The notes beneath the pieces were generated by a model, which was given only the letters and a program-made list of their open reading frames with translations, was not told where the DNA came from and ran no database searches. This document shows, piece by piece, positions 13,144 to 47,139 of a DNA stretch of 64,000 bases; positions within the stretch are counted from its first letter, which is position 1, and every line of letters begins with the position of its first letter. Source of the stretch: Mrakia gelida (taxonomy: Eukaryota; Basidiomycota; Tremellomycetes; Cystofilobasidiales; Mrakiaceae); assembly GCA_024345305.1 (NCBI GenBank), contig BRON01000008.1, positions 1,364,001 through 1,428,000 on the forward strand. The letters run 5' to 3'. The translations under genes were made by a program, and so were the position numbers.

Positions 13144-15487
13144 ATGACGAATTTTCTCGTACCCAAAGCCGAACCTCAAGACCGAAAATCGATCCCTTCA
13201 GCTCGAGCTCAACCTCGTCCTCTTCCTCCTGCCTCTTCCCTCCTCCTCCCTTCCACGGACGTCAAACCTTTTCCCCTCACTCTCGACTCCTCCCAGGCCA
13301 CTCCGAGCTCTCCTTTCTTTCTCGTCTACTTCGATCCCACCTCGGAGAAGGCTCGAAAATTCTGCAGAGAGCTCACCGTTCGTCCCTTCACCTCGTCGCT
13401 CCCTCGCATCTCGTCCGCTTAATTGCTTTACTGACCTTTTTTTTGGTCTCTTTTTCACAGAGTTGGATACCCAGTACAACCCGAATCGTCGCTGAAACTC
13501 TCTCGGAAGCTTCGCACGTCGTCGTCGAGTCTCAGTCGCCTCTCGGAGACGATCTCGTTCGAGCTCGAGCTCAACCTCCCTGCTCCTCCTCCTCCCCGAC
13601 CGCTCGACCTCCGTTCCTCCTCACGCTTCGATGGATTGAGGAGAGCATTCGCTTGAAGGGCTGGCAGCCGGAGAACAACTACCTCTACGCTTCTACCGTT
13701 GATGTCGTGGAGGAGCAACCTCAGCAGCCAAGGAGGATCGAGAGCGAAGGAAAGGACGACGTCAAGCCTCAAGTCGTCGCAAAGGTCAAGGAAGAGATCG
13801 CCCATGGACGTGGTTCTCAACTTCAGGAGCTCGAGGATGTAGTCCCGAAGGACGTGTCTGAGGCGGGGGAGGAGAGTGAGATGGAGGAAGCCGATGTCTC
13901 GTTCGAGTGAGTTTCGCGTCTTTCCTCCTTCGTTCGTCTCTTCTCGTGAGCTAAACGACTCGTATTTTGTTGACTCAGGGAAGGTCTAGAGGACGCTCGA
14001 TCGATGAACGGAGAGTCACACGAGGAGCTTCTCGATGTTGTGAACGGTCGAGATGGGAACCGGAAGGGGACGTGAGTCTTCGATCTTCGCGTCGGATCCT
14101 TTTCCCCTCCACCTCGCTGACCGCTCTCCTGTTCTTTTCTCGCGTCTCTAGGAGACCGCCTAGATGGACGGCTCAGGAGGAGATAGACCTGGCTTCCTGC
14201 CTACGAGAGAGTTCTTCGGTCAGCGAAGCTGCTCGAAAGCTAGCCGTGATGGTGAGTCGGACGCGTTCTGTCGACCCTTCTTTTCGTGAAAGCTCTGTCT
14301 AACCGTCCCCGTTCTTCCTTTACGTGCTGAAGCATCCTCGTCGATCCTATGGAGCTACGTCATCTCACTACACGCGACACAAGGCCAAGTTCGTGACCGA
14401 CTCGGTTCAGCTCCCGTCTTAGAAAAGGGCGAAACCCAAGCCCTGGACGAAGGAAGAAGACCGAGATCTCGTTCGCCTTCTTGCCTCGGCCGTGGGGAAG
14501 AAGGGCTCTCGGGCCCCGGCTGTTCGCCTTTTCGTAGAACACAAGAGCTTCGGGCAAGCAGCCGAACAGATGTCGAGAAAGGTTCGTTCGCCTTCTCTCC
14601 TTCTCTCCCCCGCTTTCTTTCTACACCTCGACCGAGCGATGCTGACTGACTTACATGTTTTCGCACTTCTCGTAGCATCCTCGTCGATCAGTACACTCAG
14701 TCAAGCTGCACCTCCAGCAGCACAAGATCGAGTTTGGCTCCGACTTCGCGACGGTGCCTTCCTTCGCGCGATGGACGACCGACGAGGACGCCGATCTCAT
14801 TAGACTCCTGACTGGAGCTATCGGAACCTTCCAGGGCGTCTATGAGGCGTTTCACCTAGAGGTGAGCGACAAGTTGATCTTGCGAGGTTTGGCTTGCTTC
14901 CGTCGACTGACCTAACTTGCTTTGCGCTCTCATTCCAACATCCCTCGAGAAAAGTGGCCAGTGTCAGAACTCACCACCACTGTTACCGGAAACGTTTCGA
15001 CAATGCAGTCTAAGCTTCGAGGATGGCCTCCTCGTCATCGTCGTCCCAACTCTCCGTCGACGGTCCCCCCTCCTTCTCGTCCTTTGGTCCTCCTTCACCC
15101 TCCGACATCACCAGCATCTCCTCCGCCGCCTCGTCATCGAAGCGAGCCCTCCAGTACCAGGTGAAGCCGATCCCTCCCTACTTCAAGCGACCGAGGCTCT
15201 CCCTCAGCGACGAGTCGAACCGACCCTCGTCAGTCGCGTCCGGATCAACCAACCCTCAACCCCGGCCCTCCTCCCCCTCTTCTTCCTCCTCTCCTACAAT
15301 CAGCATCACATCCAGATCTCCAACCAAGATTCAGACCACCCTCATCTCAGCGCACGGTCGACACCCTCCTATCGTTTCGACGACGACGAGTAAAGGGAGA
15401 GACGACGACGCCAGCGGAAGGAGGAAGTCGTGCGCGGAGGGGAGAGGTGGAAGGGTCGCTGAGTCGGTAGTAGGGATGACGGTCTAG
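13144..15487 (+). pseudogene. BRCT/Myb family member A (RAP1-like), probably broken
   Basis: An N-terminal BRCT-like domain spans exons 13144-13377 and 13461-13906, with YFDPTSEKARKFC, ETLSEASHVVVES and LLTLRWIEESIRLKGWQP. Three Myb-like repeats follow, starting RWTAQEEIDL, PWTKEEDRDLVRLL and RWTTDEDADLIRLL. Each is cut by an intron just before HPRRS, HPRRS and HPSRK. Breaks: an in-frame TAG at 14420-14422 between repeats 1 and 2; AA instead of AG at the expected acceptor (14937-14938) before HPSRK; and a TAA at 15011. A later open frame (15023-15487) keeps RPSSVASGST, shared with gene C, but lacks the cysteine finger. A 30-nt intron (14393-14422) could remove the TAG but would be unusually short. 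A decaying paralogue is most likely. Confidence 0.7.
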
Positions 15488-16080
15488 GCGGGGGAGGGCA
15501 GGGAGGGTGATGGAGGGTGGCCAAGGGGCGGAGAGGGACGCGTCGGACTTGGTTTCGAGCTTTCGCACTTTTGTTTCGTCTACGTCCCACTCCCGTTTTC
15601 GTTCTCTTTCGGTACCACTACATCTTCGATTCGCGCTCCCTTTGCTTCCAACTTCATACACCTCCAACCCTTCAAAGCCGTAACGAACCCCCTCCTCGTT
15701 TCGTTTCGTTTCAGTTCTTCTTTGATCACCTGTCGACGCGTCTTCGTGCTCTTTCTTCTTCCGATTCGCATTGACAGACGCGTTCCGTTCAGAACCCCGT
15801 GACCAGAGTGCTGTAGGCCCTACTCTCAGTACATCAGCTCCTGAGATTACTTCGTCGTCCTCGACTTCTGCCAAATCCCACTGCTCCTCCCTCTCGTTCC
15901 CACTCTTCCCTCTCTCCTCTCTCCTTGCCAATAGAAGCAACAATACAACTCACATCCATCAATCCCCTACACCCATCCCCCAAACCCTAGCCCTCCCTCT
16001 CTCGTACAACAAACCCAGAAAACCCAAAACACGACGACGCGTCCCTCTCCCCTCCTCTGCTCCCCTTCGCATCCGGCCGG
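15488..16080. other. Convergent intergenic region
   Basis: About 590 bp between gene A and the DAD1 stop. Short repeats of TTTCGTTTCG type and three GACGCGTC or ACGCGT words (15539, 15736, 16036) are present. No gene seen. Confidence 0.45.
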
Positions 16081-16800
16081 CTAAGCAGACGTGTTGGCCC
16101 CTCCAGCAGCCGAAGAAGACTGAGTCGTGTCCGCTACTGAGGATTCCGACTCGAGTTTGGCCTTTAACGCGAAAGCAAACGAACCAAAAACAGAAGAACA
16201 GAAGAGGAGGGAGGATGGAAGGTGTGAGCTTGAGCTCGCGCGTTGATGGAGAAGGAGGGAGGGTAGGGTGGGGAAAGAGAGAGAGAGAGAGAGACGTACC
16301 TCTCGCATGAGCTCTCCGAAGCGACCTGAGCGGGCGCAAGAAGAAGATAACAGAGTCAGCTGGGTTGATGAGGGAGGGAGGAGAGAGGAGCAAGGGAGGC
16401 AGAAAAGGAAGGAGGTGTTGATGAATGGTTCGTTCCACTGACCCCAAAGCTTCGCAATCGTCTCAAACCCACTCCCTACACCCGTAGCCTCCTCTACACG
16501 TCGATTCAGAGCGTTCGCGTCGCTGAGGACTTCCTCGAAGTCCTGTAGTAAACCAAAGCGAACGAGGGGAAGGAGGGTCAGCTCGCGAAGGGAGTGGGAG
16601 GGAAGGAGAGCTCGAGCTCGAGCTTCCTTCTTGTGTCTTGTCGTGGAGAGAAGGTGGATAGGATGATTTGAACGTACATTCGCGATCTCGTTGATCAGTC
16701 TATCCTGTTCTCTCTCGAACTCTGTTCGTCCGTCGAAGGCTTCTGAGGGGGAGGTGGTGGATTCGAAGATGGAAGGAGCGAGCGACTTGCGGTGATCCAT
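16081..16800 (-). CDS. DAD1: DASH/Dam1 complex subunit Dad1
   Basis: Small kinetochore protein of the fungal DASH ring that couples chromosomes to microtubules. The four exons 16800-16678, 16542-16443, 16325-16300 and 16161-16081 sum to 330 nt (109 aa). Conserved core: FEREQDRLINEIAN, then DFEEVLSDANALNRRVEE and VGSGFETIAKLWGQ, followed by a short GRFGELMRE segment from a 26-nt exon. That order and spacing match Dad1. The C-terminal ~26 residues are Ser/Ala-rich. It is divergent from LSM2, with 221 bp between starts. An AG-repeat run of about 16 nt lies in the third intron (16277-16293). Confidence 0.88.
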   Translation of the reverse strand: MDHRKSLAPSIFESTTSPSEAFDGRTEFEREQDRLINEIANVRSNHPIHLLSTTRHKKEARARALLPSHSLRELTLLPLVRFGLLQDFEEVLSDANALNRRVEEATGVGSGFETIAKLWGQWNEPFINTSFLFCLPCSSLLPPSSTQLTLLSSSCARSGRFGELMREVRLSLSLSFPTLPSLLLHQRASSSSHLPSSLLFCSSVFGSFAFALKAKLESESSVADTTQSSSAAGGANTSA

Positions 16801-17021
16801 CGTTTGGGACGCGTTTGTGGGGGGAGGAAAGCGAGGGTTGGGTTCGTGTGGGTTGGATTGAGTTGGTGGGAGGTTAAGAGAGGGTGTGGGGTGGCGTTGG
16901 AGTGGTACGGGATAGAGGTCGAGGCTGGTCGTTAGCGGAAAGGGAAGGGAGGCAGGCAGGCGAGCTTGCTCGAAAGTCGAGGAGGGTGGTGGGAGTTCGC
17001 TAACGACGACTTTCCAAGGAG
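16801..17021. promoter_or_regulatory. Divergent promoter of DAD1 and LSM2
   Basis: 221 bp between divergent starts of a kinetochore gene and an RNA-processing gene. No clear TATA box or operator is recognised. Confidence 0.45.
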
Positions 17022-17796
17022 ATGGTGAGTCCCGAGATCTACCCTTCTTCAGATTCGAGATGCATAGAAGCTCAAGCTGACCCTCCCTGCGTTCTTGTGG
17101 TTGTTGCAGCTTCTCTTCTCGTACGTCGAGCTCTCTCTCGCCTCCCTTCCCTCCTTCCTCCTTCCGTCGCTGACCTCTCCCTCCCATCCTTCGATCCTCA
17201 TCACTCCAGCGTTTTCAAGACTCTGACCGATCAGGGTACGTCCTCTCATCAATCAGCTTTGATCGAACAGTGCATGCTGACCTTGTCGTCGTCTTGCTCT
17301 TGGATCTCCAACAGAGGTGACTGTTGAGCTCAAGAACGACCTCTGCATCACTGGAACGCTCAAGTCGGTAGATCAGTTCCTCAACATCAGGCTCGACAAC
17401 ATCAAGGTCCTGGATACCGAGAGGCACCCGCATATGGTCAGTTGAATACACCCTCGAGCCCTCGAGCCCTCGCGATGGAGGGAAAGAGGGAGAGCTCAAC
17501 GGAAAGCTGACCTCTCCTTTCCCTTCCCTTCCCATCGCTGCTTCTCCATCTCATCCATGCTTGATCGCTACAGGCCACTGTCAAGAACTGCTTTATCCGA
17601 GGATCCGTGGTTCGATACGTGCAGCTTCCTTCTCAGGCGATGGATACTCAGCTGTTGGAGGATGCGACAAGGAGAGGTTCGTTTCGTCTCGCCGTCCCTT
17701 CGCTTCTTTCTCTTCGCGTGTCGAGCTGTAGCTGACGTTTCGCTCGCTGGGTTTTGAACGATGGTGCCGACAGAGGCTCAGGCTGCCAAGAAGTAA
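17022..17796 (+). CDS. LSM2: U6 snRNA-associated Sm-like protein LSm2
   Basis: Sm-fold ring subunit of the LSm2-8 (U6 snRNA) and LSm1-7 (mRNA decay) complexes. Six exons: 17022-17024, 17110-17120, 17210-17235, 17315-17436, 17574-17676 and 17774-17796, summing to 288 nt (95 aa, the normal length). The first coding exon is just the ATG and the second is 11 nt. Joined, they give MLLFSVFKTLTDQ, which matches the family start. Sm1 and Sm2 motifs are evident in EVTVELKNDLCITGTL, SVDQFLNIRLDNI, KNCFIRGSVVRYVQLP and DTQLLEDATRR. The intron immediately after the initiator ATG is the odd feature; a gene finder could easily miss the start. Confidence 0.95.
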
Positions 17797-18267
17797 AGGG
17801 AGGGATGGACGCGAAGGGAATCAAGAACGAGAGGGAGAGAGATGTTTGGACGAGGAGGGAGGGAGGGAACGACTCGACGAACGAACGCACGACTCTTCAA
17901 AGCTTCTCTCTTGCATGGCGAGGGAGATGGCATTAAAAAGAGGGGAATCCAATGAACCTTCCGCTCTATCTCCCGTCTCTGGTCTCGTTGAGCATCGAAC
18001 TCGAGGAGAAGGAGCGAAGTCGTCGAGAAGTGATGAGCTCGATCCAGCTTGTCTTCCTCTCGCCTCGCCTACTTTCGAGTTGTTTCCTTTCGCAAGTCAG
18101 ACAGGTGTTGTCACGGACCTGCTAGCTCATCGACAACTTCTTTCGGTGAAATCTTCCCTCGACCAATTTGCCGATCCAGAAACCCAAAGCAAGAACGAAA
18201 GGTCGCGTCTCTCCGAACCCAAACGTTCACCTTCTTCGTTCCCTTCCCTCTTCTCCTTCTCGCGTGG
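17797..18267. other. Intergenic, SLD2 5' flank
   Basis: About 470 bp with no recognisable gene. The last ~250 bp before the SLD2 start are CT-rich and are probably its leader. Confidence 0.45.
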
Positions 18268-20844
18268 ATGGCGGACCTCGTAGCTCTGAAAGCGGATCTT
18301 AAATCTTGGGAGAAGGACTTCAAGCTCAAGAACGGTAGAGAAGCCAGGAAGGAGGATATCAAACAGGTCCCAGAGATAGGTCAGTTCAAAGGAACAACGA
18401 AGCTCACCTTCCTTCCCTTCCCTCCCTCCTTTCCTTCGACCTTGCTCCCTCGGCTTTGCTCGAGGCTGACACGCTCCCCTTTTGCGCTTGGGTTTCTCGA
18501 TGCAGCCGAGAAGTACAAGATCTACAACAAGTCTCGGAAACCACCTCCCTCAACAGCAGGAGCTCCAAAGTCAACGGCTCCTTCCTCCTCCAAGCACCCT
18601 CAACCAACCCTCCCTCTTCCTCCCTCCAAACCCTCAACCTCAACCTCAAAACCTAAGACCAAACCAGAAGAGCCTCGCCGCTCCCCCTCTCCACCCCCAT
18701 CAGCTCGTTCAACTCGTTCAGCACCCTACTCAACCCCCTCGAAACCCTCTCCTTCCTCGCACAACGTCCTCTCAACCACCCCTTCCTCCAAACGACCCTC
18801 GGCCTCCAAAGCTCCCAACTTCAACCCCTTCCTCTCAGCACCAGCACCAGCACCAGGAACACCATCCTCCTCTTCCAAAGCATCCCATCATTCGCCTTCC
18901 AAACCCTCCACGCCCTCAGGAGCCTCGTCCTCTTCGTTCCATTTCGTCAACGGCACCTCGCCTTCGAAACTCCTCTCGCTCATCTCCTCCCACTCGTCCA
19001 AAGGAGCTCCCAATGACGCCGTCTCCCTTCGAGGACAGGGCTGGACGCCTAGGACCAAAGCGAGGAAGAGACTCAGAGGGGAGGACGTCGGTGGGGAGAC
19101 GCCCGAGAAGATGAAGAAGCCTAGGAAGAGCTGGGGAGGGAGTGTCGCTGCTGCTTCGACTTCGACGTCGACGGCTTTGGGAGGCGAGGAGGAGGACACG
19201 ATCGAGGAAGAGGAGGACGAGGAGATGCTCGGACCTAGTCCTGTGAAGGAAGAGGAGAAGGGTGTGAGGGAGTGGTTTGGGAGGAAACGAACTGCAGATG
19301 AGGAGGACGAGTCGAGCGGGGACGACGAGGAGGGAGGAGGACTTCCTCAGTTGCCTAGGAGGAAGAGCAGTCTCGCTTCGAACGGTGGGCTCGACAAGGG
19401 GAAGGGGAAGGAGGTCCCTCCGAAGAAGAACGTAGCGTTCTTCGGATCAGGGAAGATGGTCGACCTCCCTTCCTCTCATCGGAACTCCGCCGACGCGTCG
19501 AGCCAACAACGACCCAACCTCGGTCGGAACGGTTCCTCCTCCAACTCCACTTCCAACCACCATCACTCCCACGCCCACCCAGCCAGTAACCCTTTCCTGT
19601 TCAACTCCACCACTCCCTCTTGGACCAACAACCCCACCTCCAAAGACTCGACCGGCGGCGGCGACCCGTCGAAGAAGAACCCAGACGACGCGAACGACAA
19701 CGACTCGCCCGAGAGCTCTCCTCCTCCCGAAACCAAGAAGCAGAAGGCCGCCAACGCCAAGAAGGAGAAGGTTCGGAAAGCTGGACCTGTGGGACCTAGG
19801 ATGGACGCTGCGAAGCGAGCGAAGGCGGAGACGGCTCTCAAGACGCTCCAGGGTATCATCGGGGACGATTCGGACGAGGACGAGGACGACGAGGAGGGTG
19901 GAGGTGGTGGAGGTGGAGGTGGAGGAGTAGGGATGGGTCTGGGAGTGGAAGCTGGGGTGAGGATCGTGCGAGGGAGTCATCTTGTGGGTAGGAGGGGAGC
20001 GGAGGAGGAGAGGGAGAGGGAGGAGAGGAGGAGGAGGAAGAGGGAGGAGAGAGAGGCGGCTGCTGCTTCGACGCAGAAGACGAGCTCGAACGGTGGGAAG
20101 AAGAGCAGGCGAGTGGTTGGGAGTGATGACGAAGAGGAGGATGAGGAGATGGTCGAGGAAGCAGAGGAGGAGAACGAACTCGAGTCGGACGACGCGTGGA
20201 ACTCCCAAGACGATCTCGACCTCGAGAACGAAGCCTACCTAGGAGGAGGAGGAGGAGGATCACCATCGAAACAGAGGAAGAAGACCAAGAAGACTCTCTA
20301 CGGACTTCCAGACGAGAACGCGTCGGATTCGGATCCACCTCTTTCCTCGAACGACGACGACGACGAGGACGAGCCCGCTCCCGAACATGACGACAACCGT
20401 CCTTCCACACTCAAACCTCACCACCACCACCCTCACGCCTCCTCCACCTCAACATCTGACCTCCCACCCCACCTTCTCTCCCTCCTCTCCCTCCGTTCCC
20501 CCGAATCCCAAGCCCTCAAACTCCATCAACGACGCGCCCAAACTTTCCAATCCATCTTCGCTGCTCCTCCTCCGACCCTCTCCTCAGCTCGACCACCACC
20601 ACCTCCACCTCCTCCAGCAAGGAAGAAGAAGGGGAAGGAGAAGGAACCCCAGAAGGAAGTGGTGGTTCCTCTGCCGGTGATCAAGCGACGTAACCTCGAT
20701 ACGAAGGGGAGGGTGTTTGGCGAGGTTTGGGGAGTGGGAGAGGAGGTGGTGGTGGATGGGGATGAGGATGATGATTGGGCTAGTGAGGTTGAAGGGTGGA
20801 AGGAGGGGGGTGGAGGGTTGGAGAGGGAGGAGGAGGATTGGTAG
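18268..20844 (+). CDS. SLD2: DNA replication regulator Sld2/Drc1
   Basis: Replication-initiation factor which, in yeast, binds Dpb11 when phosphorylated by CDK. Two exons (18268-18379 and 18506-20844) give 816 aa. The family signature is at the N-terminus: LKADLKSWEKDFKLKNGR, EDIKQVPEI, then AEKYKIYNKSRK, completed exactly by the splice. The remaining 770 residues are low complexity: Ser/Pro-rich with many S/T-P sites (expected for CDK control), then acidic runs and basic KKxK clusters, with a short GLPDENASDSDP segment near the C-terminus. It is longer than yeast Sld2. The intron has a CTGAC branch-like site well upstream of the TGCAG acceptor. Confidence 0.85.
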   Translation: MADLVALKADLKSWEKDFKLKNGREARKEDIKQVPEIGQFKGTTKLTFLPFPPSFPSTLLPRLCSRLTRSPFALGFLDAAEKYKIYNKSRKPPPSTAGAPKSTAPSSSKHPQPTLPLPPSKPSTSTSKPKTKPEEPRRSPSPPPSARSTRSAPYSTPSKPSPSSHNVLSTTPSSKRPSASKAPNFNPFLSAPAPAPGTPSSSSKASHHSPSKPSTPSGASSSSFHFVNGTSPSKLLSLISSHSSKGAPNDAVSLRGQGWTPRTKARKRLRGEDVGGETPEKMKKPRKSWGGSVAAASTSTSTALGGEEEDTIEEEEDEEMLGPSPVKEEEKGVREWFGRKRTADEEDESSGDDEEGGGLPQLPRRKSSLASNGGLDKGKGKEVPPKKNVAFFGSGKMVDLPSSHRNSADASSQQRPNLGRNGSSSNSTSNHHHSHAHPASNPFLFNSTTPSWTNNPTSKDSTGGGDPSKKNPDDANDNDSPESSPPPETKKQKAANAKKEKVRKAGPVGPRMDAAKRAKAETALKTLQGIIGDDSDEDEDDEEGGGGGGGGGGVGMGLGVEAGVRIVRGSHLVGRRGAEEEREREERRRRKREEREAAAASTQKTSSNGGKKSRRVVGSDDEEEDEEMVEEAEEENELESDDAWNSQDDLDLENEAYLGGGGGGSPSKQRKKTKKTLYGLPDENASDSDPPLSSNDDDDEDEPAPEHDDNRPSTLKPHHHHPHASSTSTSDLPPHLLSLLSLRSPESQALKLHQRRAQTFQSIFAAPPPTLSSARPPPPPPPPARKKKGKEKEPQKEVVVPLPVIKRRNLDTKGRVFGEVWGVGEEVVVDGDEDDDWASEVEGWKEGGGGLEREEEDW

Positions 20845-21641
20845 GATCGGAGAGGAGAGGAGAGGGAGGGAGAGATCTTGAGGCGCGTCGAGTTGAGTTG
20901 AGTTGGGGCTTCGTTTCGTTCGACTGCTCGCTCGCTCGTTGGTGGTTGATCTAGAGTTCGGTATCTTGGTCTATGTCTCTTTTGATCTTGGGTGTGGTAG
21001 CGAGGGAAAGGATGAAGCGAGAGGCGGGAGGTAAGTTTGAGGACGAAGAATGTTAAGTCGAACAGAAATTGAAGGACGCGTCGTGCGCCGTCCCTCCCTC
21101 GTACCCTTTCTTCTTCTCTTCCTGACTCCCCACCCACCCTTCTCTATCAGTTTTCACGCAGTTCGCCACCCTCTCCTAGACAATCCTCGACCTCTGCATC
21201 CTCTCTCGGTCGTCTCAGCTGCTGCAGCCTTCGTTCAATCTCGACCTCGACGATTCCTGGAACCGATCTCAACCGCCTCCCCTTCCTCGGATGGTCACCT
21301 CCTGTGAGTTCAAGACACCTTTCTTCATCTCGCTGCATCTTCAAGCCTCGAGTGGAACGATCGCGTCCACGGCACGTCGAACGAAGAAGAAAACGCCTTC
21401 GGCAGCCTTCGAGACATCTCCCTCGATCGCGTTTCGTTCCATCTTTTCTCCCTCCTTCGGTCGGCGGAGTCTTGGTATACACGTTACTCGCTTCTTTCGC
21501 TTCCTCGCTTCAGCGCCACAAGACAGGTGTCTTTCATTGTTTTTTTCTCAAGCAGCTCTTCTCGTTCTCATTCGTTCCTCCTGACCCCCAACCTCCACCC
21601 CCCTCCCTCTCCCTCTCTCTCCTCCATCGCTCCCATCAAAG
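20845..21641. other. Intergenic with exon-like stretches, unresolved
   Basis: About 800 bp. Two rightward stretches look coding-like but could not be joined into a supported gene: about 21250-21300 (reads DLNRLPFLGWSPP before a GTGAGT) and about 21430-21530 (a possible membrane helix reading GGVLVYTLLASFASSLQ). They may be leader exons of the next gene or chance frames. A GACGCGTC palindrome lies at 21077. Confidence 0.3.
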
Positions 21642-23309: not shown

Positions 23310-25735
23310 TCAACCTCCCTCACCCTCCTTCCTCTTCAAACCCCCTTCACCACCTTCCCAGCGAGATACTGACTGCCACCCCTCATCTAGACTTTGCTCT
23401 CCCATCCTCATCCCATGCGAAGTCGAAGCGAAGAAGGACGATCCTGCCGTCGGAGCGAACGACGAAGGACCCATCCCCACGGAAGGGAAGCTCGAAGAAG
23501 GAGGGGAGAGGGATCGACGATGCTGCTGCTGAGGACGAAGAGGAGAGTCCATCTCGAACTGGTTCGATCTGAACCTCGTCTGGCCCGCCGCGAAGAAGGG
23601 AGGAGGCGGCGAGGGAGCTCGTCTGGAACTCGACGCGTCGTTCCAATCGACGGCCGGTCCCATCATCGTCGCGCGGAACTCATCGAGCGTAGGAATCGAG
23701 CGTGCTCTCGCCGAGGCTGAGTTCGAAGGAGGAGGAGAAGGAGGAGCGAAGGCTGGAGCCCAAGGTCGATGGTCCATGAAGGAGGAAGCGAACGAGGAGG
23801 GACCGGCGTGAGGCTGATGAGATGGGAAGAAGGAAGCTGCGTGGCCTGGAGGTGGAGCGGGAGCGTCGACGAAGGATGGTGGAGATGAGGAGGGTTGTCG
23901 TTGGAATCGTCGAGGAGGAGGAGGAGGAGGAGGAGGAGAAGGAACGTCGCTGTGATTCCTTCCCGCACTCGCGTCCGATCTGGAGGTTCCTCGAAGGCTG
24001 GGGACGTCGAGCTTCCTCCTCCTTCTCGCGAGAGCGGATTTCCCTTCGGCGATGCTCGTTCTGACTCCTGTCCCTTCAAGCGCAGCCAAAACGAGAAGGA
24101 AGAGCAGAAGCCCCACGAGGTCAGCAGAACGAAGACGAGGAAGCTCAACTCGATTCGACGCGCGAAAAGGAGTAAGAGATGAAGGACTGACTGAACGCAG
24201 ATCTACACCCCTCGCAGTACTGCCCCGTCCCATCGTCGATGTCCAAGAGTCTGTACCATCTCTTGGCTTCCTCGATGTTGCAGTTCGTGCAGGGTTCTCC
24301 TGTTCGACTCTGTCGCAAAGCGTTCTGGTTGTATCGTCCGGACGAAGACCTTCTCGCGACTTGAGTGGAGGACTGGGAGGGATCGTTGTTTTGATCGTCA
24401 TCTCCATCGTCCTGATCCGATGAGTCGTGGTTCGTTGGAGGAGGAGGAGTGAGGGTTCGGCGAGAGGAGGAAGGAGTTTGAGAAGGCGAGAGGGCGGCGG
24501 GTTGGTCGTGCTCGGCTCGTCTCTTGATTCGTTGGATGAGGCGATCGATGTGAGCCTTCTTGTCGTGGTAGTGCGAGGAGTAGGCGCCGATGGTTCTTGA
24601 AGGGTGCTGAGAACAGAACAGAAGGTGAAGGTTGAGTCTTCGCTCGGGGAGAGAAGAGAAGGGTGGAAGGAGAGACGCGACGACGGACTCACGCTGGCTT
24701 GATACTCCGACCAGGCTGCTGTATCGGGATGACGTTTGGAGATGTTGAATCGGGCGAAGGCCTGGAACGAACGAGAAGAAGTCAGAAACGCAAATCTTGT
24801 CGTTCTCGACGAGCAGCAGTGTGGAGAGAGCTCGAACTCATCATCTCCTCGTCCTCCGTCCAAGGTCTCGGTGGAGGACGTTGAACAGCAGAACCACTAG
24901 CCCCATCCACCTCCGATGGCAAGACGATCTCGTACGACCACGAAGGCTTCTTCTTCTTCGACGACCTGCCAAACCGAGACAGCCACTCGTGAGCTTCACG
25001 ATCCACAAACTCGAGACAAAGAACGAACGCCGAACGAAAGCTCACCTGTCCTCCTCCTCCTCCCTCCCTCTCTTCCTCTCCACGACCCTCCCCATCCTCA
25101 CAGGATGCTCCCTCCCTCCCTTCAGCCTCTTCATCTCCCTCTGCCTCCCCACCACAGGCTTCACGTCCTCCTTCTTGACGATCTTGTACTTCTTATCCTG
25201 CACGTCCATAGACTCCCCAGCGAAGAACGACTCCCTCGCCCCAAGCAAGATTGACGATCTCCCTCCCCTCCCCCTCGTACGACTCAGGCCAGACGGGCTT
25301 TGAGTCGTCGAGAAGGACATGGGTAGCTTCGATCAGCCAGGGGGTGATGGAGAGGGTGTTGTTGGTGTACTCCTAAAGACGAGGGAGAGGAGGGGGAGTC
25401 AGTGAGGGAAGAAGGGAGGGGAGGAGTGGAGCGCGAGAAGAACGAACTCGGAGGAGTTGACAGGTGTCTCGAGCTTGGGAGGAGGTTGGGTCGAAGAAGC
25501 AAACGAGTCCGGGATGGTTCGAAGGCCAGGTGGGTTGAGCTGAGTGCATGGATGAGGCTGGAGAAGGAGGGAGGGAAGCTGGAGCGATAGAGGCTGAGGG
25601 AGGAGGAGGAGGGACGGGGTGTTGAGCTTCGTCGTCTTCTTCTTGTTTTCCTTCTTCTGATTGTTTTGGAGCGGAAGAAGGTTCGAGAGGAGGAGCAAGA
25701 TCGTCGATAGGTATGAGCTCTGGTTCGGCGGACAT
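23310..25735 (-). CDS. BRCT/Myb family member B (RAP1-like), with frame anomalies
   Basis: Exons as read: 25735-25448, 25372-25046, 24965-24838, 24761-24693, 24606-24197 and 24060-23310. The BRCT begins VCFFDPTSSQARDTCQLL, continues ITPWLIEATHVLLDD and REIVNLAW, then ARESFFAGE only after a one-base shift at the C4 run 25239-25242 (coding strand G4). A single Myb-like unit follows: PWTEDEEMM, an intron, FNISKRHPDTAAWSEY, a second intron, then HPSRTIGAYSSHY. A cysteine-pair finger (CTNCNIEEAKRWY ... QYCEGC) lies before a long Pro/Ser/Phe-rich tail. The junction between the third and fourth exons also fails to keep frame in my reading. Probable nuclear DNA-binding protein of about 640 residues. 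Whether it is functional depends on whether the breaks are real. Confidence 0.65.
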
Positions 25736-31640: not shown

Positions 31641-32494
31641 GGTCGACGAGCTGCGAGCTTGAAGGGAGGGAGGGGAGCCGAAGAGGAGGAGGGAGAGCGG
31701 GTGGCGACGAGAGGTTCGTCCTTGGTTTGAGAGGTGTGTTAACGACGAGGTGAGGTGGAAGGGAAGATAAGGGGTCGATAAGGATGAAGTTTCGAGTTTG
31801 CTGGGGTGGATGGTTGGGGAGAGAAGGAAGGAAGGGGAGGAGAGCTCGAAGCGGTCGAGCTCAACGAGACGGGGCGCGGTTGCGTTGACAAGGGCACGTC
31901 GGTGAGCTTAATTGACTCAGAAAACCGCGCAGGAAAAACTTCAGGCGAGAGTTTGAGAGTTGTTTCACTCTAGTTTTGCGATATGTGTGCGAATAAAAAG
32001 TTCTTGCGACGGTCAAAGTGTCAAGAGACGGAACCACCCTCCCTTCGCTGCCCACCAACCATCGCTGTCTCCTTCCTTCCATGGGAACCCCCTTCCTCGA
32101 GCTTGAGTCTCAGTAAACCCCAACACCTCCTACTCATGTCAACTTCTCTCCAACCAAAAACGGAGCCTCAAGAGCTCGAAACGATCCCTTCTCCAGCTCC
32201 TCCTCCCTCGAGTCGAGCTCAACATCCCCCTCCTTCCCTCCTCCTCCCTTTCAACCTCGTCGCTTTCATCCAACCTCCTCCTCCTCGCGATTTCCCAATC
32301 CACCGACTTCTACCCCTCTCTTCCCGACTTCACCCATCCGAGTTTTGGAGATCGGCAAGTGATATCGATAGCCGGGGTGCTTGCAAAAGAAGGGAAAGGA
32401 GGACTTCGCCTCCAGCTCAAACACCCTCCTTCTCCGCTCCCCTCTCCCTCCTTCGTTGCAGCTAACCACCTTGACCTCGGAGGATTCGACAAAG
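31641..32494 (+). other. Intergenic with truncated family-like N-terminus (C0)
   Basis: From the ATG at 32136 the frame reads MSTSLQPKTEPQELETIPS. It lines up with the start of gene A (MTNFLVPKAEPQDRKSIPS) and shares the following SLLLP block. No BRCT core follows, and splicing from here into gene C does not keep the BRCT frame. I read it as a truncated extra copy or an upstream reading frame of gene C. The rest of the interval shows nothing. Confidence 0.4.
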
Positions 32495-34565
32495 ATGGAC
32501 CCTCCTATGTTCATCATGCCTTCAGAAGCTCAACCGGCTTCACGAGCTGGAAGTCGAGCTCCCGCTCCTTCACCTTCGCCTTCCCCTCCTCCCAGTCCTC
32601 CTCCCTTCCCCCTCCCAAAAACGACAACAACTCCTTCCCTCCCTTCTTCCTCCTCGTCTGCACCCAACCAACAGCAACAAGAACCATGGAGATTCAAAGT
32701 CCTCTTTGACCCTACCTCTGAGCGGGCTCAAAGACTTTGTGCTTTCCTCATCGTTCGTCCCAGCCTTCTCCTCTCACTCCTTCTTCCTCGCACCCTCGCA
32801 CCGGACCTGATCTCCTCCTTCTTTTCCGACGTTCCAGCATCCCGGCATTGGCACCCCCTTCCTCACCACCACCCTCTCCGAAGCAACCCACGTCGTCGTC
32901 GATCCTCTCTCTTCGTTTGGACCAGTCTTGTTTCAAGCGCGAGCTCGAACCTTCCTTCCCTCCTCGACGTCTTCGCCGCCTTATCTCCTCACTCTGGAGT
33001 GGATCGAGGATACCGTGCGTTTGAAAAAGATCCAGCCGGAGGAGGGGTACGCTTATGTCCCGGTGGGAGAGCGAGGTGGAATTGGTGTGGGAGCGAGGAT
33101 GTGAGTCGGTTCGCCCAGACGCGTCGAAGAAGAAGAAGAATGAAGCTGACCTTCCTTCCTGCTTCGTCTCCACTTGTCAAGTGACGACGCTGTACCACCA
33201 GCTTCACCGGTCGACATCTACGAGGACGAGATCGAACTAGAAAATGCAGATGAGGTGAAACGAGGAGTTGAGAGAGTGAGCCGACCCTTTCCCTTTCCCT
33301 CCCCTCGCGACTCGCCTGTGCTGACGTTGGCGATGTGATTTTGCTCTCCAGCCGCTTTGGAAACGTTTTTTTGGACCCAAGAGGAAATCTCCGATTTTCG
33401 TACAATCCTTGGGGAAAGTTCGAGCGTCAAGGCTGCTGGGAGGGCAATGAACAGGAAGGTTGGTCGTCCTATCTTCCAATCCTTCTTGTCCAGAAACCTC
33501 ACTTACTTCTCGCCAACATCTTCCTGGTCTGTATCCAGCACCCTCGACGAAGCGCTCAAGCTAGTGCCAATTACTACCACAAGAACAAGTCCGAGCTCTT
33601 GTTGGATCGCTTTGCCACGAAGCGAGTGTGGGAGGAAACTGAGCTCGAACAGCTCTCGCAGCTCATCATCAAGTCGAACGGAACCACCCTCAACGATATG
33701 TATCGCGCCTTCCACGCTGCGGTTAGTCCCTTTCTCGTTGCGAAGTCGCGTGCGTCGTTGGTCGATGGAATTGTCCGCTTTCAGCGAGCGGTATTCTGAC
33801 GCGTCTTCTCGCCTCCCGAACCGTTAGAACCCTCACAGATCGGTGAAAGCGATCCGCAGGGTCTACGAGAGGTCCCAGGAGCGTTCCGACAACGTCGCCC
33901 ACCGACGCGGGATCGTCCTCCCTGCCACGAATCCGTCTCTCGAGCCCAACGACAGGTCTCGACCTCTCTCTTCCTCGTCTGGAGACACGTCGCCTCATCG
34001 GACGTCGGATCCGTCATCGTCGAAGCGACCTCGGCTGGAACTGACGGAGCAGGACTCGAACCAACCCTCCTCAGTCGCGTCCGGATCAACGACCTCGAAC
34101 CCAAATCCTCCACCCGCCGTCCCCTCCTCCTCCCTCTCTCCCTTCCCACAACATCATCATCACCACCACCACAGTCATCACCGTCACCGCCACCACCAAC
34201 GACCTCAACCCAACCCACCCATCCCTTCCAGCCAACCGTCCTCCCTCTCCTCAATCCCATCCCTCATCCTCTCCCCACCCTCCTCCGCCTTCCCCTCCTG
34301 CTGGTCCTGCACCCATTCAAACTCCTCTCTCCAGCTCTTCCGTCGTCTCGAACTCGCCGAACCAGCCTGGCACGATCCTCAAGCAACCAGGAGGTTCGCC
34401 CGTCTCGTCTGCGAGGGGTGCTGCACGCTTTTGAGGAGGGAGATCGAAGGGAGGGGAGTGGAGTTCGAGGTGGAGTTTAGGGAGATGGGAGAGTTAGAGC
34501 AGGCTTTGTGGGTTGCGGAGAGGTTGAAGGGGGGTGGGTTGTGGAAGAGGAGGGTGGATCGATGA
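32495..34565 (+). CDS. BRCT/Myb family member C (RAP1-like), one-base frame break
   Basis: Exons: 32495-32752, 32838-33100, 33182-33275, 33352-33458, 33539-33721 and 33828-34565. BRCT: LFDPTSERAQRLCAFL, HPGIGTPFLTTTLSEATHV, then YLLTLEWIEDTVRLKKIQP. Two Myb-like repeats: FFWTQEEISDFRTIL, an intron, HPRRSAQASANYY; then VWEETELEQLSQLI, an intron, NPHRSVKAIRRVY. The tail has RPSSVASGST (shared with A), a His-rich run, and a cysteine-pair finger CWSCTHSNSS ... LVCEGCCTLL. The frame needs one more T in the T7 run at 33366-33372. With it the chain is 547 aa and reads VERPLWKRFFWTQEE through the junction. A probable sequence-specific DNA-binding protein; telomere or promoter binding is inference from the Rap1-like plan. 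Confidence 0.7.
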
Positions 34566-41016: not shown

Positions 41017-42039
41017 GTGTCGTGCTGAGGAAGGGGTGGGTGGGTGGTGGGTTTGGGAAGAGAAGGGAGAGTTCGAAGTCGAGAGGGGAAGCGAGGATGG
41101 CGTTTCCTTTTCCTTTGGAAGTGGACTGGGATAGGGGAGCGGGAAGGGTGCTGATAAGAAGGGAACGATGAACGTGTCTTGGAGGGTGTGAAGGGAGAGG
41201 CAAAGAAGGGTGGTTGGGTTCGGTTGGGAGCTGTAGTTGGAGGACAGAGCAAGAGGACGAGAGGAGGAGGAGTGAGCTTCGTGCACGGTCGGAGCCGAAG
41301 GGAGGGAGAGGTTGGTTCTGGCAGGGGTCAGCAGCAAGAGACGACAAGTTTGGACGCACAGGTTATAAAGACAGGTCGTCGGTGTGTGTGGAAGGAGAAA
41401 GCGTTGGGGGTTTGCGGCCTTGAGAAATTAAAACAGGAGAAGAAGAAGAAGAAGGGGCAAGAAGGAAGAGAGTTAAGATCCAGATCGGCGCGTCGAGAAG
41501 GTTGTTTGTGCGCGAGAACGGGAATAATGGGGGGACGCGTTTGGTTTGGGTTTCGGTAAATGTAGTGGAAGGGCTGGACCGTCAGATGGGAGGAAGTCGA
41601 CGTCTGCGTTTCTGTGCGAGGAGGAGGAGAAGGAGGAGAGTCGGGCGAGGAGAGGAACGTCGGCCGACGAAGGCTTCGTGCTTTCGCCCTGCAGGACTGC
41701 TTCCAAGGAGGTGATAGACATCGAGCATGGTAGAGCTATCGACTATGCAGAAGGTGAGATATGAGAGAGAGTGGAGGGCATCTGCAAGCGAAAGAAGGAG
41801 GGAAAGAGAAGGGAAGCAGCGAATCGGTGAGCTTCGCCGAGATGACCCTTCCAAAAAACGAATCGAGCTCACCAAATCTTCCTCCTTCGCAATCGAAGGC
41901 CTTCCAGCCCGCCCAAAGCGATCCCCTACATCTCAGCTCCCTCCCCAACCAACTTTCACCCTCCTTAAAGCAATACATCAAGCCTCATCGATCAACTCAA
42001 CCCACCCCTCCTCCCTCCCCTCTCTCTCTCTCATCCCCC
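41017..42039. other. Intergenic, no gene seen
   Basis: About 1 kb between the unknown gene and SDHAF4. Short frames only, and an ACGCGT word near 41533. Nothing supportable. Confidence 0.45.
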
Positions 42040-42426
42040 TTAGAAATCCGTCGCCCGTCCACCAAAAGTCCACTCGTTCCCCAACAATGGATCCTTCTTA
42101 GGTCCACCCACCTCCCCAGTCTTAGGGTTCACCTCCCCCTCGAAATCTGGCTTGGGAGTGCGTCTCAGATCGCGATGAAGGTCCGGGTCGTTGGGCGAGA
42201 CGTCCTTGAGGTCGACGGTTTGAGCTTTCTTCTGGAGAGCTTCGAACTCGCGTTGTTCGGCGGCGGGGAGGGAGGGCGGGCCAGGTCGGAACATGGGTGC
42301 GGCGGCTGCTGGTGGTTTGGAGGAGGCGAGGAGGGAGGGGGAGAGGTGGAGGCGACGGAGGGAGGAGGGGAGGAGGGAGGAGGAGGAGAAGAGGGTGGGT
42401 TTGAGGAGGGATCGGAGGGATGCCAT
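42040..42426 (-). CDS. SDH8: Succinate dehydrogenase assembly factor 4
   Basis: Mitochondrial chaperone of the SDHAF4 (DUF1674) family. In yeast the family member (Sdh8) assists flavinylated Sdh1 during complex II assembly. Single exon, 128 aa. The N-terminus is a Ser/Leu/Arg-rich presequence (MASLRSLLKPTLFSSSS). The signature lies at the C-terminus: FEGEVNPKTGEVGGPKKDP, then L-G-N-E-W-T-F-G-G-R-A-T-D-F at the stop, with the invariant final D-F. It is divergent from mitochondrial DHODH over 237 bp, so two inner-membrane-linked genes share a promoter region. Confidence 0.92.
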   Translation of the reverse strand: MASLRSLLKPTLFSSSSLLPSSLRRLHLSPSLLASSKPPAAAAPMFRPGPPSLPAAEQREFEALQKKAQTVDLKDVSPNDPDLHRDLRRTPKPDFEGEVNPKTGEVGGPKKDPLLGNEWTFGGRATDF

Positions 42427-42663
42427 GGCTGTGAGAGTGGTTTGTTTTGAGATCGGGTAGAGATAAGAGGTGAAGGTAGAGTTCTGGCGGTTGAAAGTTG
42501 GCTTGTGAGAGGGTGAGGGTTGGTGGAGAAGGAGAGGGAAGGGGAGGAAACGATCAAGAAGGTCGAAGCTGCAGCGGCCGAATCTCGTCTTCCCTCGTGC
42601 TTCTCGACTTTTTCGTTCTCGTTCTTCTCTCTAGCCACCAGCACCCCTCAAAAGACGTCAACC
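42427..42663. promoter_or_regulatory. Divergent promoter of SDHAF4 and DHODH
   Basis: 237 bp between starts of two mitochondrial genes. The right half is CT-rich, like other leaders here. No operator recognised. Confidence 0.45.
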
Positions 42664-44761
42664 ATGTCCTGCCCCTCCCTCCTCTCCCGTCGGATCCTCA
42701 TCACCTCCTCTCGATCCCCCGCTCTCACCTCTTGCCTCCGTCGCTCCTACACCTCTCCCACCCCTCCCTCCCCTCCTCCTCCAGTGAAACCCTACCGTCC
42801 CTCAGCCGCTTCTCCTCCTCCTCGCCCACCACCCGTCGAAACAGCTCCTCCACCCCCACCACCACCCTCAGCGGAAGTCCACACCCTCCTCCTCCCGACG
42901 GTCTTACTGGCGCTGGGAGTAGGAGTAGGGTACTCGATGCTCACGGATGCGTCCAGTTCGATTCATCCCAAAGTCATCATGCCCGTCATTCGAACTTTGT
43001 TCGACGCGGAGACGAGTCACAGGTTGGCTATCAACTTCATGAAGTATGGAGGGCCCTTTGGGAGTAGTGATAAGAAGATGGATACGGAGAATTTGGAGGT
43101 GGAGGTGAGTTTGAGACGAGCTCGAATGAACGAAGGCAGGGAGGTTGAGCTCGAGCTGATCTGGTTTGATTGTTGTTGTTTTGATGATCGACGTTGGGTG
43201 TAGATGTTCGGACAGTTGATTACGAACCCTCTTGGAGTGGCTGCTGGGTTCGATAAGAACGCTGAGGCTGTAGATGGTGAGTGTTCGACGACCTTCCTCC
43301 TCCGAGAAGAGGCAGGAGCGAGAAGGAAATGTGAGCTCACACCATCCTTCGTCCCTTCCTTCCCTCGCCTCATTGCGGATCGCGTCGCGTTCAGCTCTGT
43401 TCGGACTTGGGTTCGGATACGTCGAGATCGGAAGTGTTACGCCTAAACCTCAGGTTCGTCTCTCTTTCTCTCTCGTTTCTGCGAGATCAAGCTCGAGACG
43501 AAAAAGTCGAGACGACGAGCTCAACCTCACCTCCTCCCTTCCCTCCCTCCCTCCTCCTTCCCTTCTTCCGTCTCTCACCACCACCTGGCACTCTTTCAAA
43601 CACCATCTCCAATTCCTGTCACAGGAAGGGAACCCCAAACCCCGATTCTTCCGCCTCCTCGAAGACGGCGCCTGCATCAACCGCTACGGTTTCAACTCTG
43701 ACGGACACGAAGCCGTCCTCCAAAACCTCCAAGCTCGACTTACCTCCTTTTACAAACACAACCGAGCTCTCCTCCCTGAAAACCACGACCCTACCTACCC
43801 CTTCCCACCTCAGAACCTCAACCGCTCCCTCTCGCCCAACAAGCTTCTCGCCATCAACCTGGGGAAGAACAAGCTCTCTGCAGAGGATTCGGACGAGGAT
43901 TACCTCTGTGGAGTTAGGACGTTCGGACCTTACGCGGATGTGTTGGTGATCAACGTTAGCTCTCCGAACACGCCTGGGCTGAGGCTCTTGCAGGGTGGAG
44001 GGAGACTGGGGACGCTGCTGGGGAGGGTGGTGAGGGAGAGGGATGGGTTGGTTGTTGGGAGCGATGGGGTCAGACCCAAGGTGGTGGTGAAGGTTGCGCC
44101 TGATTTGGGAGAGGAACAGATTGTGGATATTGCGAGGGCGGTGAAGGAGAGTGGGGTGGATGGGATCATCGTTAGTAATACGACGATTGGAAGACCGGCT
44201 AGTCTGAAATCTCGTGAGTCGCACGCGTCCTCTCCTCGTTCGTTGGACGCGTCGAAGCTCAACTCACCTTCCTTCTTCCGCCCTTGCGACCCTTTCTTTC
44301 TCTCCTTCCTCCTCCCTCTCCCACCCACCCAACCCGCCTCCCTCCCCTCCCACCCAGCCCTTGCATCCGAAATGGGAGGTCTCTCAGGCCCCCCACTCAA
44401 ACCCCTCGCCCTCTCAACCCTCCGTTCCCTCCGAGCTCAACTCCCTCCCCTCCTCCCCATCATCGGCTGCGGAGGAATCTCCACTGGTGCCGACGTCCTC
44501 GAATTCGTCGAAGCTGGTGCCAGCGCAGTCCAGCTCTACACGTCCTTCGGGTTCAACGGAGTTGGGACGGCGAGGAAGATCAAGGATGAGTTGGAGGACG
44601 AGTTGGAGAAGAGGGATGTTACGTTTAGGACGCTGGTGTGGGAGAGGAGGCAGAGGGAGGTGGAGAGTCAGAGGAAGAGGAGTGAGGAGAAGGGTGGGTT
44701 GGTTGGGGAGGTGGTGAAGGAGGTGAAGGAGTTGGGGGAGGAGGTTAGGGAGTTGCTTTGA
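42664..44761 (+). CDS. URA9: Dihydroorotate dehydrogenase, class 2 (mitochondrial)
   Basis: Oxidises dihydroorotate to orotate in pyrimidine synthesis, passing electrons to quinone at the inner mitochondrial membrane. Exons 42664-43104, 43204-43276, 43395-43453, 43625-44213 and 44358-44761 sum to 1566 nt (521 aa). There is an Arg/Ser presequence, a Pro-rich linker, and a membrane helix near residues 78-98 ([19 protein letters not shown]) typical of class 2 enzymes. Core motifs: [102 protein letters not shown] and [16 protein letters not shown]. The C-terminus has an extra ~50-residue charged tail rich in E/R/K. The gene symbol is by analogy with other yeasts. Confidence 0.94.
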
Positions 44762-45331
44762 GGAGGGAGCGACTTTAGACGAGGAGGGGCGCTATCTGCA
44801 TGGTATGTTTGTAAGCACTACTGGTGATGGGTGGAGAGAGCGAGATACGGACGCGATTGGGAGAAAGCGGCGCAACTAGACGAAAAGGAGAAGAACGACG
44901 ATGCGTCGATACGGTCGATTCCAAAGTTCGTCCTTTTTCGCAGCTTTTATCCCTCCCTTCCCTCTGTAGACGAGCGTGGAACTGACCCTGTCTGATTGTA
45001 CTTGTCCTCGTGTCTGTAGGTAGTTCTCCCGTTCCCGAGCTCAAGACCTCAGTCGTCGCTCAAACGAGAAGAACGAGACGCGTCCACCTTTCCGTTGCTC
45101 CAAAGCCTAATGCGTCCCCTCCTGTGAGATCTCGTTCAAAAATATGGTCCCTTTCTCTCGTGAACCACCTCGTTCTCTCTGTTCTTTGGTGGGTCGACTG
45201 CATTGCGCGTTGACGACCGTTTCGAGGTCGTCAAACAAGGTCGGCGGCGAGGAGCTGACCTCGTTTCGTTCGAGCTCGCTTCCCACCAACTCTGACTCCC
45301 TCCCTGCCTCCCTCTTTCCTTTTCAATCAAG
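44762..45331. other. Intergenic, gene D 5' flank
   Basis: About 570 bp. GACGCGTC at 45079, CT-rich just before gene D. No gene seen. Confidence 0.45.
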
Positions 45332-47139
45332 ATGTCCAACCTCAACCTCTCCTTCGGAGGTCAGAAGGTCGTAGTCCTCCAAGCTACTCCTACGCCAGAA
45401 GACCTGATGGATCTCGACGTTCAACCTCAAGCTCAACAGCGGCTTCCCACTCCTCCTCGCCACTCGACCTCTCTCTCCCCTTCCTCTACCCTCTTACCAG
45501 CAACCTACCACCCAGCCCGACCCTCGTACTCTTTGATGCATGGGGATCACGCTATGTCGGAAAGGATCGGCCATCAACTCGTTCGTCCAAAACCTTCCTT
45601 CTGTCCGTTATCGACTCCGACCTTCCCTCTCTTCCTTGCTCATCTCGTCTTCCTTCTCTCCTCTTTTTGCCTTTTCTTCTTTTCTTTTGGGGTTTCCCAG
45701 CAACCTCTGATGGTTGGACCCTATTCACCCATCGCTCACCAAGCTGGCACTGACTCCGGTGGAGAGGAAGCGGAGCGAGGGAGCGACGATGAAGGGGAGG
45801 CGTCGAGGTGAGCTCGTTCGGCTCGAAGCTTGAACGACGACGAGCTTTAAACTGACTTTTTCTCCTTCGTGCGTGTTGCATAGATACGACTCTCCGATGG
45901 AGGATTCGGCCAACTTGGTTTCTGAGGAGGATACGGTTCAGCAAGAGCAAAGTCTCAACAAGAAGTGAGTTCCGTCTGTACCGTCTTCCCTCGATCCACT
46001 TCTTCCGACTCTCGCACCTCTGACGAGTTCTTCTCCTCTTTACCTCAGAACAAGATGGACGGAACAGGAGGATCAAGATCTTGCTCTTTGCATCCGCCGC
46101 CATCCCACCCTCTCTGCAGCATCTGATGAGTTCATCAAGATGGTCAGTCCATCGTTCCCTCCTTTACCTCCTTTGCCCCCTCCTCACCATCATGAGCTCG
46201 TCCTGATCGAATAAACCTGGCAATCCACAGTATCCAGATCGATCCGCTCTCGCAGCTGCAGTCCATTACAGCAACAACAATTCTAGGTTTGCCGACGACG
46301 TGGCCGATCGACCCCAAACGCGAACCGCGTCGAAAAATCACAGAGCTTGGACGACGGTCGAGGAGCAGACCTTGATCCGACTACTCGCCTCTAGGGCAGG
46401 CGAGAGTTTTGTGACGCTGGCTCGACTCTTCGTAGAGCAGGTGCGAGTTGGATCAAGGAGCGACGCAACCGCTCCGTCACGCGCTGACTTCGCTTCGTTT
46501 CTTCTTCCTCATCCTCTCCAACGGAAGCACCCTCGCCGAACCGATTCATCGACCAAAACGTACTACTGGAGATACAGGCAGTATTTCGATCAAGCCGCCG
46601 AAGCGCTCCGTTCAACACTCTCACCTCCCCTCGTCGACGCGACCGGATCATTCAATTCGAACCCTTCTCCTCCACAGCCTGCCCACCCCACTTCCTCCTC
46701 ACCTTCCATCGTCTATCCACACCCGCTACTATACACTCCTGGACCATCATCTCCCGGCTCTTCGAACGGTCTCGTCCGGAACTCGTCGACGTCTCATCAA
46801 GGACAGCCCTCCTTCGTCCAACGACTTCCAGCAACTCAACCCTCTCCCTCTCCTCCCACCTCCCACTGTGAGTTCTGCGGCGGACTCGACTCTCCCTTCT
46901 TCCAAACCCTCGAACTCGCAGGAAGGAGTGCCTCGCACCGCAACGCCCTCGTTCTTCTCCCCGACCAGCTCGCGTGCGCGTCGTGCGTTCGATTCTGCAC
47001 GAAGACGCTGATGGACGGGGGTGCACCGGGAGAAGGAGTGGAGGGAATGGGCGAGCTCGAGTTGTTGGAGTGGGTCGCGGGGAAGTTGGGCGCGAGGGGG
47101 AAGGAGGAAAGGAGGAGGAGGCTCGGTCAGGTTGAGTGA
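45332..47139 (+). CDS. Myb-repeat family member D (intact, BRCT not recognisable)
   Basis: Six exons (45332-45580, 45701-45807, 45884-45964, 46049-46142, 46231-46440, 46528-47139) sum to 1353 nt (450 aa) with all phases closing. Two Myb-like repeats are present: RWTEQEDQDLALCIRRHP, an intron, YPDRSALAAAVHYS; then AWTTVEEQTLIRLLAS, an intron, HPRRTDSSTKTYYWRYRQYF. The introns before YPDR and HPRR fall at the same place as in genes A-C. The C-terminus has a cysteine-pair finger, HCEFCGGLDSP ... LACASCVRFC, as in B and C. The N-terminal ~85 residues lack the FDPTS and ATHV BRCT marks. This is the only copy I can read without any break, so it is the best candidate for an active family member. Confidence 0.78.

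Follow-up and report, generated by a model that had tools for sequence, protein, structure and literature searches.

According to the cited part of PMC6510891, Rap1 is normally encoded by one gene or by two; in methylotrophic yeasts, the two genes RAP1A and RAP1B are located on different chromosomes and encode BRCT, a double Myb and the RCT domain. The duplex telomere binders studied in Ustilago maydis are Tay1 and Trf2 (PMC7744550 and PMC7952879, in the parts cited here), and the word BRCT is absent from the main text of PMC7744550 so far as cited. In repeats R2 and R3 of c-Myb, the third helix is inserted in the major groove (PMC4227766, cited part). The human chromosome 19 clusters contain 246 of 467 KRAB zinc-finger loci (PMC10547255, cited part). 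Here we analyze a window of 64,000 nucleotides from the cold-loving basidiomycete yeast Mrakia gelida, which corresponds to positions 1364001-1428000 of contig BRON01000008.1 (hereafter C8) and contains four related genes that combine BRCT, Myb and cysteine-rich domains, named A (+), B (-), C (+) and D (+). These genes are four of about 45 members of one family in the genome. We propose, with a probability of about one half, that this is a Rap1-like DNA-binding family with diversified targets, whose members would work like KRAB zinc-finger proteins.

Genes A to D are members of one family. In the four genes, an interruption directly precedes the third, HPRRS-type helix of every Myb repeat, and it lies at an AG acceptor in all repeats of the window except the third repeat of gene A (AA); this shared interruption site is strong evidence for the common origin of the four genes. 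Genes A, B, and C also share an exon encoding F-D-P-T-S, followed after an intron by the A-[TS]-H strand of the BRCT domain, as the initial annotation had noticed; A and C also have the W-E helix of this domain, for which a likely counterpart exists in another frame of B. The number of Myb repeats (three in A, one in B, two in C, and two in D) also agrees with that annotation. By contrast, the two C-terminal cysteine pairs that it had assigned to B, C, and D form one common domain, termed Cys4, in C and D only, where it consists of two CxxC pairs and a GELE tail; the pairs of B belong to a different, GATA-like finger, and B is without the Cys4 domain.

The common plan of the family comprises a BRCT domain, up to eight Myb repeats, an optional GATA-like finger, and the C-terminal Cys4 domain. 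Hidden Markov models (HMMs) of the family identified 44 loci in the examined stretches, including 42 on C8, one complete copy on contig C1, and one on C6. These stretches cover 226,290 of the 1,792,598 bases of C8, and some of them cut through genes, thus the family counts are lower bounds. Because the HMMs derive from exons of the family itself, the table of loci is a description with a small control rather than an independent test; in this control, five stretches of C2, C9, and C16 (16.6 kb), nothing was matched at E<=0.02. BRCT exon 2 and the Cys4 domain were each found in 35 of 44 loci, and the GATA-like finger in nine, including B. The predicted gene models are rough, with shortened linker exons, and domain content alone was used. 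One group of members carries Rap1-type Myb repeats with the consensus GWLxxEEExLARFLAS...IWxQYxHPSRTxxAYxxHHxxRR, often with the finger between these and the last Myb. The second group has shorter repeats, which reach about eight in the predicted gene at C8:1509230-1513632, where a BRCT domain was found and a Cys4 domain was not. Another predicted member, at C8:784410-786406 (-), has a BRCT domain and two C-terminal Cys4 domains, with no Myb found, and is located head to head with a member starting at 786793.

Profile comparisons bear out the BRCT and Myb assignments of the initial annotation. A profile of 17 members matched the BRCT domains of DNA polymerase mu (1.7e-5) and BRCA1 (about 1e-3) in the PDB, and a profile of 32 Myb repeats matched c-Myb (5.7e-5). 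The signal in single proteins is smaller: PF00249 exceeds its cut-off of 24.4 bits in A (25.8 bits) and in the C1 copy (27.7 bits) and is matched at E<=1 by 10 of 32 Myb repeats, whereas the best Pfam match of a single BRCT domain has E 0.0053, no BRCT model matches more than two of 17 members, and no Pfam family matched B or C. The C-terminal domain gave nothing significant as a profile of 25 members against the PDB and chance matches alone in Pfam; it appears to be a new domain without known relatives. A single-sequence structure prediction of this domain of D had a mean predicted local distance difference test score of 50 and was not used. NCBIfam matched nothing relevant in the Myb repeats. 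No KRAB box or C2H2 finger was matched in the Pfam-scanned family proteins, including A, B, C, and the C1 copy; the scan of the Myb repeats gave one chance match to C2H2 (E 0.11, in one of 32 repeats).

The proposal that the targets have diversified is based on the third Myb helix, in which positions 6, 7, 10, 11, 14, and 15 of the segment starting with HP were taken as the putative DNA-facing side. Over 59 helices, the mean entropy is 3.43 bits at these positions, compared with 1.94 bits at the core-facing ones and 2.12 bits elsewhere; four of these six positions rank highest in variability among all 23, with positions 19 and 22 after the helix being close (3.34 and 3.27 bits). In 15 independent close pairs, the DNA side of helix 3 has a nonsynonymous distance (dN) of 0.74, compared with 0.16 for the core and 0.19 for the remaining positions, at a synonymous distance (dS) of 1.05, so that dN/dS is about 0.71 on the presumed DNA side and 0.16-0.18 elsewhere in the segment. 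The DNA side changes faster than the core in all 15 pairs and faster than the rest in 14 of them (Wilcoxon 6e-5 and 3e-4, respectively), and an earlier count over seven pairs agrees (17/35 vs 29/115, Fisher p 0.012). For the most variable columns of helices 1 and 2, which were picked by entropy, the corresponding dN/dS distances are 0.39/1.12 and 0.31/0.88. This pattern fits repeated change of the DNA target on a conserved scaffold, and the earlier suggestion of a fast-evolving DNA-binding family is thus sustained by a diverging, clustered BRCT-Myb set with rapid change at the predicted DNA-reading side.

The remainder of the protein appears to be more constrained. We computed dN/dS for the 14 closest pairs as well as for all pairs with dS <1.2. 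In the closest pairs, the ratio is 0.12-0.46 for the C-terminal domain, which is under purifying selection, and 0.14-0.72 for the BRCT exon, with nine of 14 pairs at <=0.33. We considered two readings of the copies. Under our proposal, the Myb array would read DNA and would have changed its target repeatedly, with the BRCT and Cys4 domains recruiting the same partners across copies; the many members would be sequence-specific regulators or repressors that have effector parts in common and differ in their targets, the most plausible candidates for which are repeats or selfish DNA. In the other reading, a birth-and-death family would have arisen by local duplication of a Rap1-like gene and been scattered along the chromosome by inversions, with most copies redundant or decaying and the DNA side relaxed; we regard this as possible, though improbable. 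It accommodates the BRCT-only or Cys4-only members in the examined stretches, and the same orientation in 16 of 34 nearest relatives is expected from random inversion; however, the C-terminal domain of the closest pairs has a low dN/dS, and in helix 3 the core stays at about 0.16 next to a DNA side of about 0.71, which argues that many copies are in use.

Several observations weigh against the proposal of diversified targets, and two of them also favor the birth-and-death reading. First, the reading frame is broken in A, B, and C, three of the four copies in the window, although the one-base breaks of B and C may be either real or assembly errors. Second, the median dN/dS over all pairs with dS <1.2 is high (0.66-0.84), and the ratio exceeds 1 in 68/484, 22/162, 28/119, and 75/266 pairs for the four segments (14-28%); we read these values as saturation, which is not proved, and relaxed constraint would also give them. 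In addition, the DNA-side dN/dS of 0.71 does not exceed 1, and a surface freed by the loss of DNA binding would vary too. The DNA-facing positions were assigned by alignment to c-Myb, using what we take to be its contact residues, and were fixed after the column entropies had been seen. Finally, the Mantel correlation is weak (r=0.113, p=0.067).

The clustering noticed in the window extends along contig C8, which represents 5.1% of an assembly of 34,857,517 bases in 25 contigs. Searches by tblastn returned 42 matches for gene C and 36 for gene D (exon pieces, E<=1), all of them on C8 except three weak ones, at C9:1543916 (E 0.08), C5:411153 (0.29), and C4:1451508 (0.24). A C-terminal-domain query (E<=10) gave 39 matches, of which 38 are on C8 and one is on C1; the 38 include one locus matched in two pieces and one match with E 3.5. 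The binomial probability of 38/39 on C8 is about 4e-48 if common descent is ignored; since copies are not independent events, this value says merely that the spread is not random. All 51 matches of a multi-Myb copy are on C8, as are 34 of the 42 matches of the BRCT and first Myb of the C1 copy; of the remaining eight, four are in the query gene, two fall in a single C6 gene, and two are weak matches at C9:345432 (E 0.26) and C1:43886 (0.68). The C6 locus (955435-955991, -) is a BRCT-only relic and, besides C1, the sole place with a strong E-value found off C8. On C8, the copies occur in both orientations with a median spacing of 21 kb; two more C-terminal-domain matches, at C8:876840 and 980341, are outside the table of 44 loci, and two weak matches, at 469046 (E 0.0017; no family domain seen) and 1269596 (0.15), were left out of the count. 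Three BRCT matches over the Pfam cut-off lie close together at C9:1060461-1062885, a place without a family HMM match.

Outside this genome, gene D had no match at E<=1 in a database of 5.8 billion proteins, in which scoring covered the 7993 candidates with the most shared words, and neither did the C-terminal region of the C1 copy (944 candidates). The control in the same database, DHODH, retrieved Mrakia frigida with 256 of 276 ungapped aligned residues identical; as gene models may be missing, the lack of a protein-database match does not prove absence in other species. Most members are separated by high synonymous distances, which argues for an old age of the family. A description of it was not found in the open-access literature searched, including the cited part of section 6 of PMC12749792; most subscription papers were outside this scope.

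In a midpoint-rooted tree of 36 C-terminal domains, in which nine of 33 inner branches are well supported, the C1 copy is located among C8 copies, in a group of 17 (support 93/89). Nearest relatives are separated by a median of 117 kb and by up to 25 other members; in 2000 permutations the distance was 318 kb, and a fraction of 0.001 gave a value as small. The confinement to one contig would probably have resulted incidentally, as copies duplicated locally and were then moved by inversions within the chromosome; a chromosome-specific role of the genes is possible, but less likely than duplication in cis and inversions. In such a role, as a selfish chromosome-bound system, the genes would act on their own chromosome, for example in transmission bias or chromosome-specific chromatin, and this would keep them on C8. 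It would account for near-complete confinement although nearest relatives are up to about 780 kb apart; however, C8 carries housekeeping genes, the STE3 genes are on C16, and copies exist on C1 and C6, and we regard this explanation as very improbable. A mating-type chromosome was also rejected for the markers searched, as STE3 is on C16 and the 10 homeodomain matches include four on C16 and none on C8. On C16 itself, two matches to STE3-type pheromone receptors are 38 kb apart (465013-466017 and 503471-504508), and homeodomain-like matches are found on opposite strands at 286-288 kb, with all four on this contig below the cut-off; this is perhaps the mating-type region.

Exchange between copies is suggested by an inverted pair 31 kb apart on C8 (962490-964538 and 993644-995710), which shares about 1.3 kb at 94-100% identity in 100-column windows, with 900 of it at 98-100%. 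The surrounding windows are at 63-95% identity and a block upstream at 77%, and the similarity stops at about the coding end. We read the tract as gene conversion between copies, the alternative being a recent partial duplication. For the mobile behavior that the initial annotation had raised, this one tract was seen; no transposase or terminal repeats were found in the 3' flanks of the pair (2.7 and 1.8 kb), and no transposase search was made. Decay driven by repeat-induced point mutation was rejected, as the 40 strongest blocks have no clear excess of transitions over transversions and CpG transitions are a minority.

The relation to Rap1, suggested in the initial annotation, stands for the order of domains, since BRCT followed by Myb is the Rap1 plan; membership in Rap1 itself is not established. 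Myb_Rap1 (PF08914) is the best curated match of the first Myb of the C1 copy, at 12.9-16.4 bits against a cut-off of 27.1, and is matched at E<=1 by two of 32 Myb repeats and by one of 18 Rap1-type repeats. A six-frame genome search with PF08914 gave no match, but introns split the domain there and the controls gave none either. The 18 Rap1-type repeats retrieved no Rap1 from the PDB; their sole match was a TTAGGG-binding factor (0.098, not significant). An exon-by-exon search for Rap1_C/RCT (PF11626) gave none over the cut-off in the genome, with a best score of 17.4 vs 24.2 bits on C2, and none of 14 control genomes gave a match either. A link to telomeres, also raised earlier, was not upheld: the copies occupy interior positions of C8, and no tandem telomere repeat is present in the 226 kb examined there. 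The two contig ends (C8:1-1500 and 1791100-1792598) lack one as well, and C8 may thus not reach the chromosome ends. We rate it as improbable that these are telomere or subtelomere proteins, that is, multiplied Rap1 paralogs sharing telomere and promoter work like the methylotrophic RAP1 pair. The BRCT-Myb plan, the weak Myb_Rap1 match, and the precedent of two RAP1 paralogs with different DNA preferences (PMC6510891, cited part) are in its favor, whereas Rap1_C has no match over the cut-off, the duplex telomere binders studied in Ustilago maydis are other proteins (PMC7744550 and PMC7952879, cited parts), and about 45 copies with varied DNA-facing residues are ill suited to one fixed repeat.

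Within the window, the positions of the four genes given initially are retained (Table 1), and the copies are separated by unrelated genes, namely a Sld2 homolog (PF11719), a leucine-rich repeat protein, a DUF1674 protein, and DHODH. D alone of the four genes reads cleanly; no BRCT domain was found in D, and no C-terminal Cys4 domain in A. Gene B requires frame changes once in the BRCT domain and once in the Myb, and resembles a finger-bearing member that is truncated after the finger. Gene C has a frame break at exon 4, in the T-run 33366-33372, and probably starts upstream, at about 32136, with a first exon placed by the conserved N-terminus. Rfam at gathering scores found nothing in the window.

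Table 1. Features of the Mrakia gelida window; positions count from its first base.
Feature	Position	Strand	Content
Gene A	13144..15487	+	BRCT exons 13144-13377, 13461-13906; three Myb repeats; C-like tail
Gene A Myb repeats	14162-14401, 14441-14735, 14769-15007	+	
Gene A breaks			in-frame TAG 14420-14422; AA for acceptor before 14939; TAA 15011-15013
Drc1/Sld2 replication protein homolog	18268-20844	+	PF11719, 35.7 bits; between A and B
Gene B	23310..25735	-	BRCT exon 1 25448-25510, partial exon 2 25301-25348; gene end uncertain
Gene B Myb	24541-24606	-	one Rap1-type third helix
Gene B finger	24193-24291	-	GATA-like CxNC/CxxC
Gene C	32136..34565	+	BRCT 32690-32752, 32856-33020; Cys4 domain 34272-34556
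Gene C Myb repeats	33369-33598 (Myb 1), 33629-33893 (Myb 2)	+	
Gene D	45332..47140	+	exons 45332-45580, 45701-45807, 45884-45964, 46049-46142, 46231-46440, 46528-47140
Gene D domains	46053-46299, 46348-46596, 46807-47121	+	two Myb repeats; C-terminal Cys4

Compared with Rap1, the family has the same N-terminal BRCT with Myb repeats after it and, in the C1 copy, a match to Myb_Rap1 below the cut-off; it differs in having about 45 copies, up to eight Myb repeats, and no RCT found, and in that many members end in a Cys4 domain and some carry a GATA-like finger. RAP1A and RAP1B of methylotrophic yeasts resemble it as Rap1 duplicates with diverged DNA preferences (PMC6510891, cited part). Tay1 and Trf2 are likewise basidiomycete DNA-binding proteins with Myb repeats, but Tay1 contains two Myb motifs and functions at telomeres (PMC7952879 and PMC7744550, cited parts).

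The most specific form of our proposal is that the family is a fungal counterpart of the KRAB zinc-finger proteins, in which shared BRCT/Cys4 recruiters are combined with Myb arrays re-aimed at changing selfish DNA by selection and gene conversion, the arsenal being generated in cis, on a single chromosome; we put it forward tentatively, as a rather doubtful possibility. If true, this would show that an arms-race design like that of the zinc-finger repressors with which vertebrates silence jumping genes is also attainable with another fold, and in a yeast, an organism in which individual copies would be open to tagging, deletion, and mapping. The two systems differ in their parts, as the Mrakia family has Myb rather than C2H2 repeats and BRCT/Cys4 rather than KRAB. 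They are alike in being large families crowded on one chromosome and in joining a conserved effector to a variable repeat array, with divergence at the DNA-contacting residues, which for the Mrakia family are those that we presume from the alignment to c-Myb.

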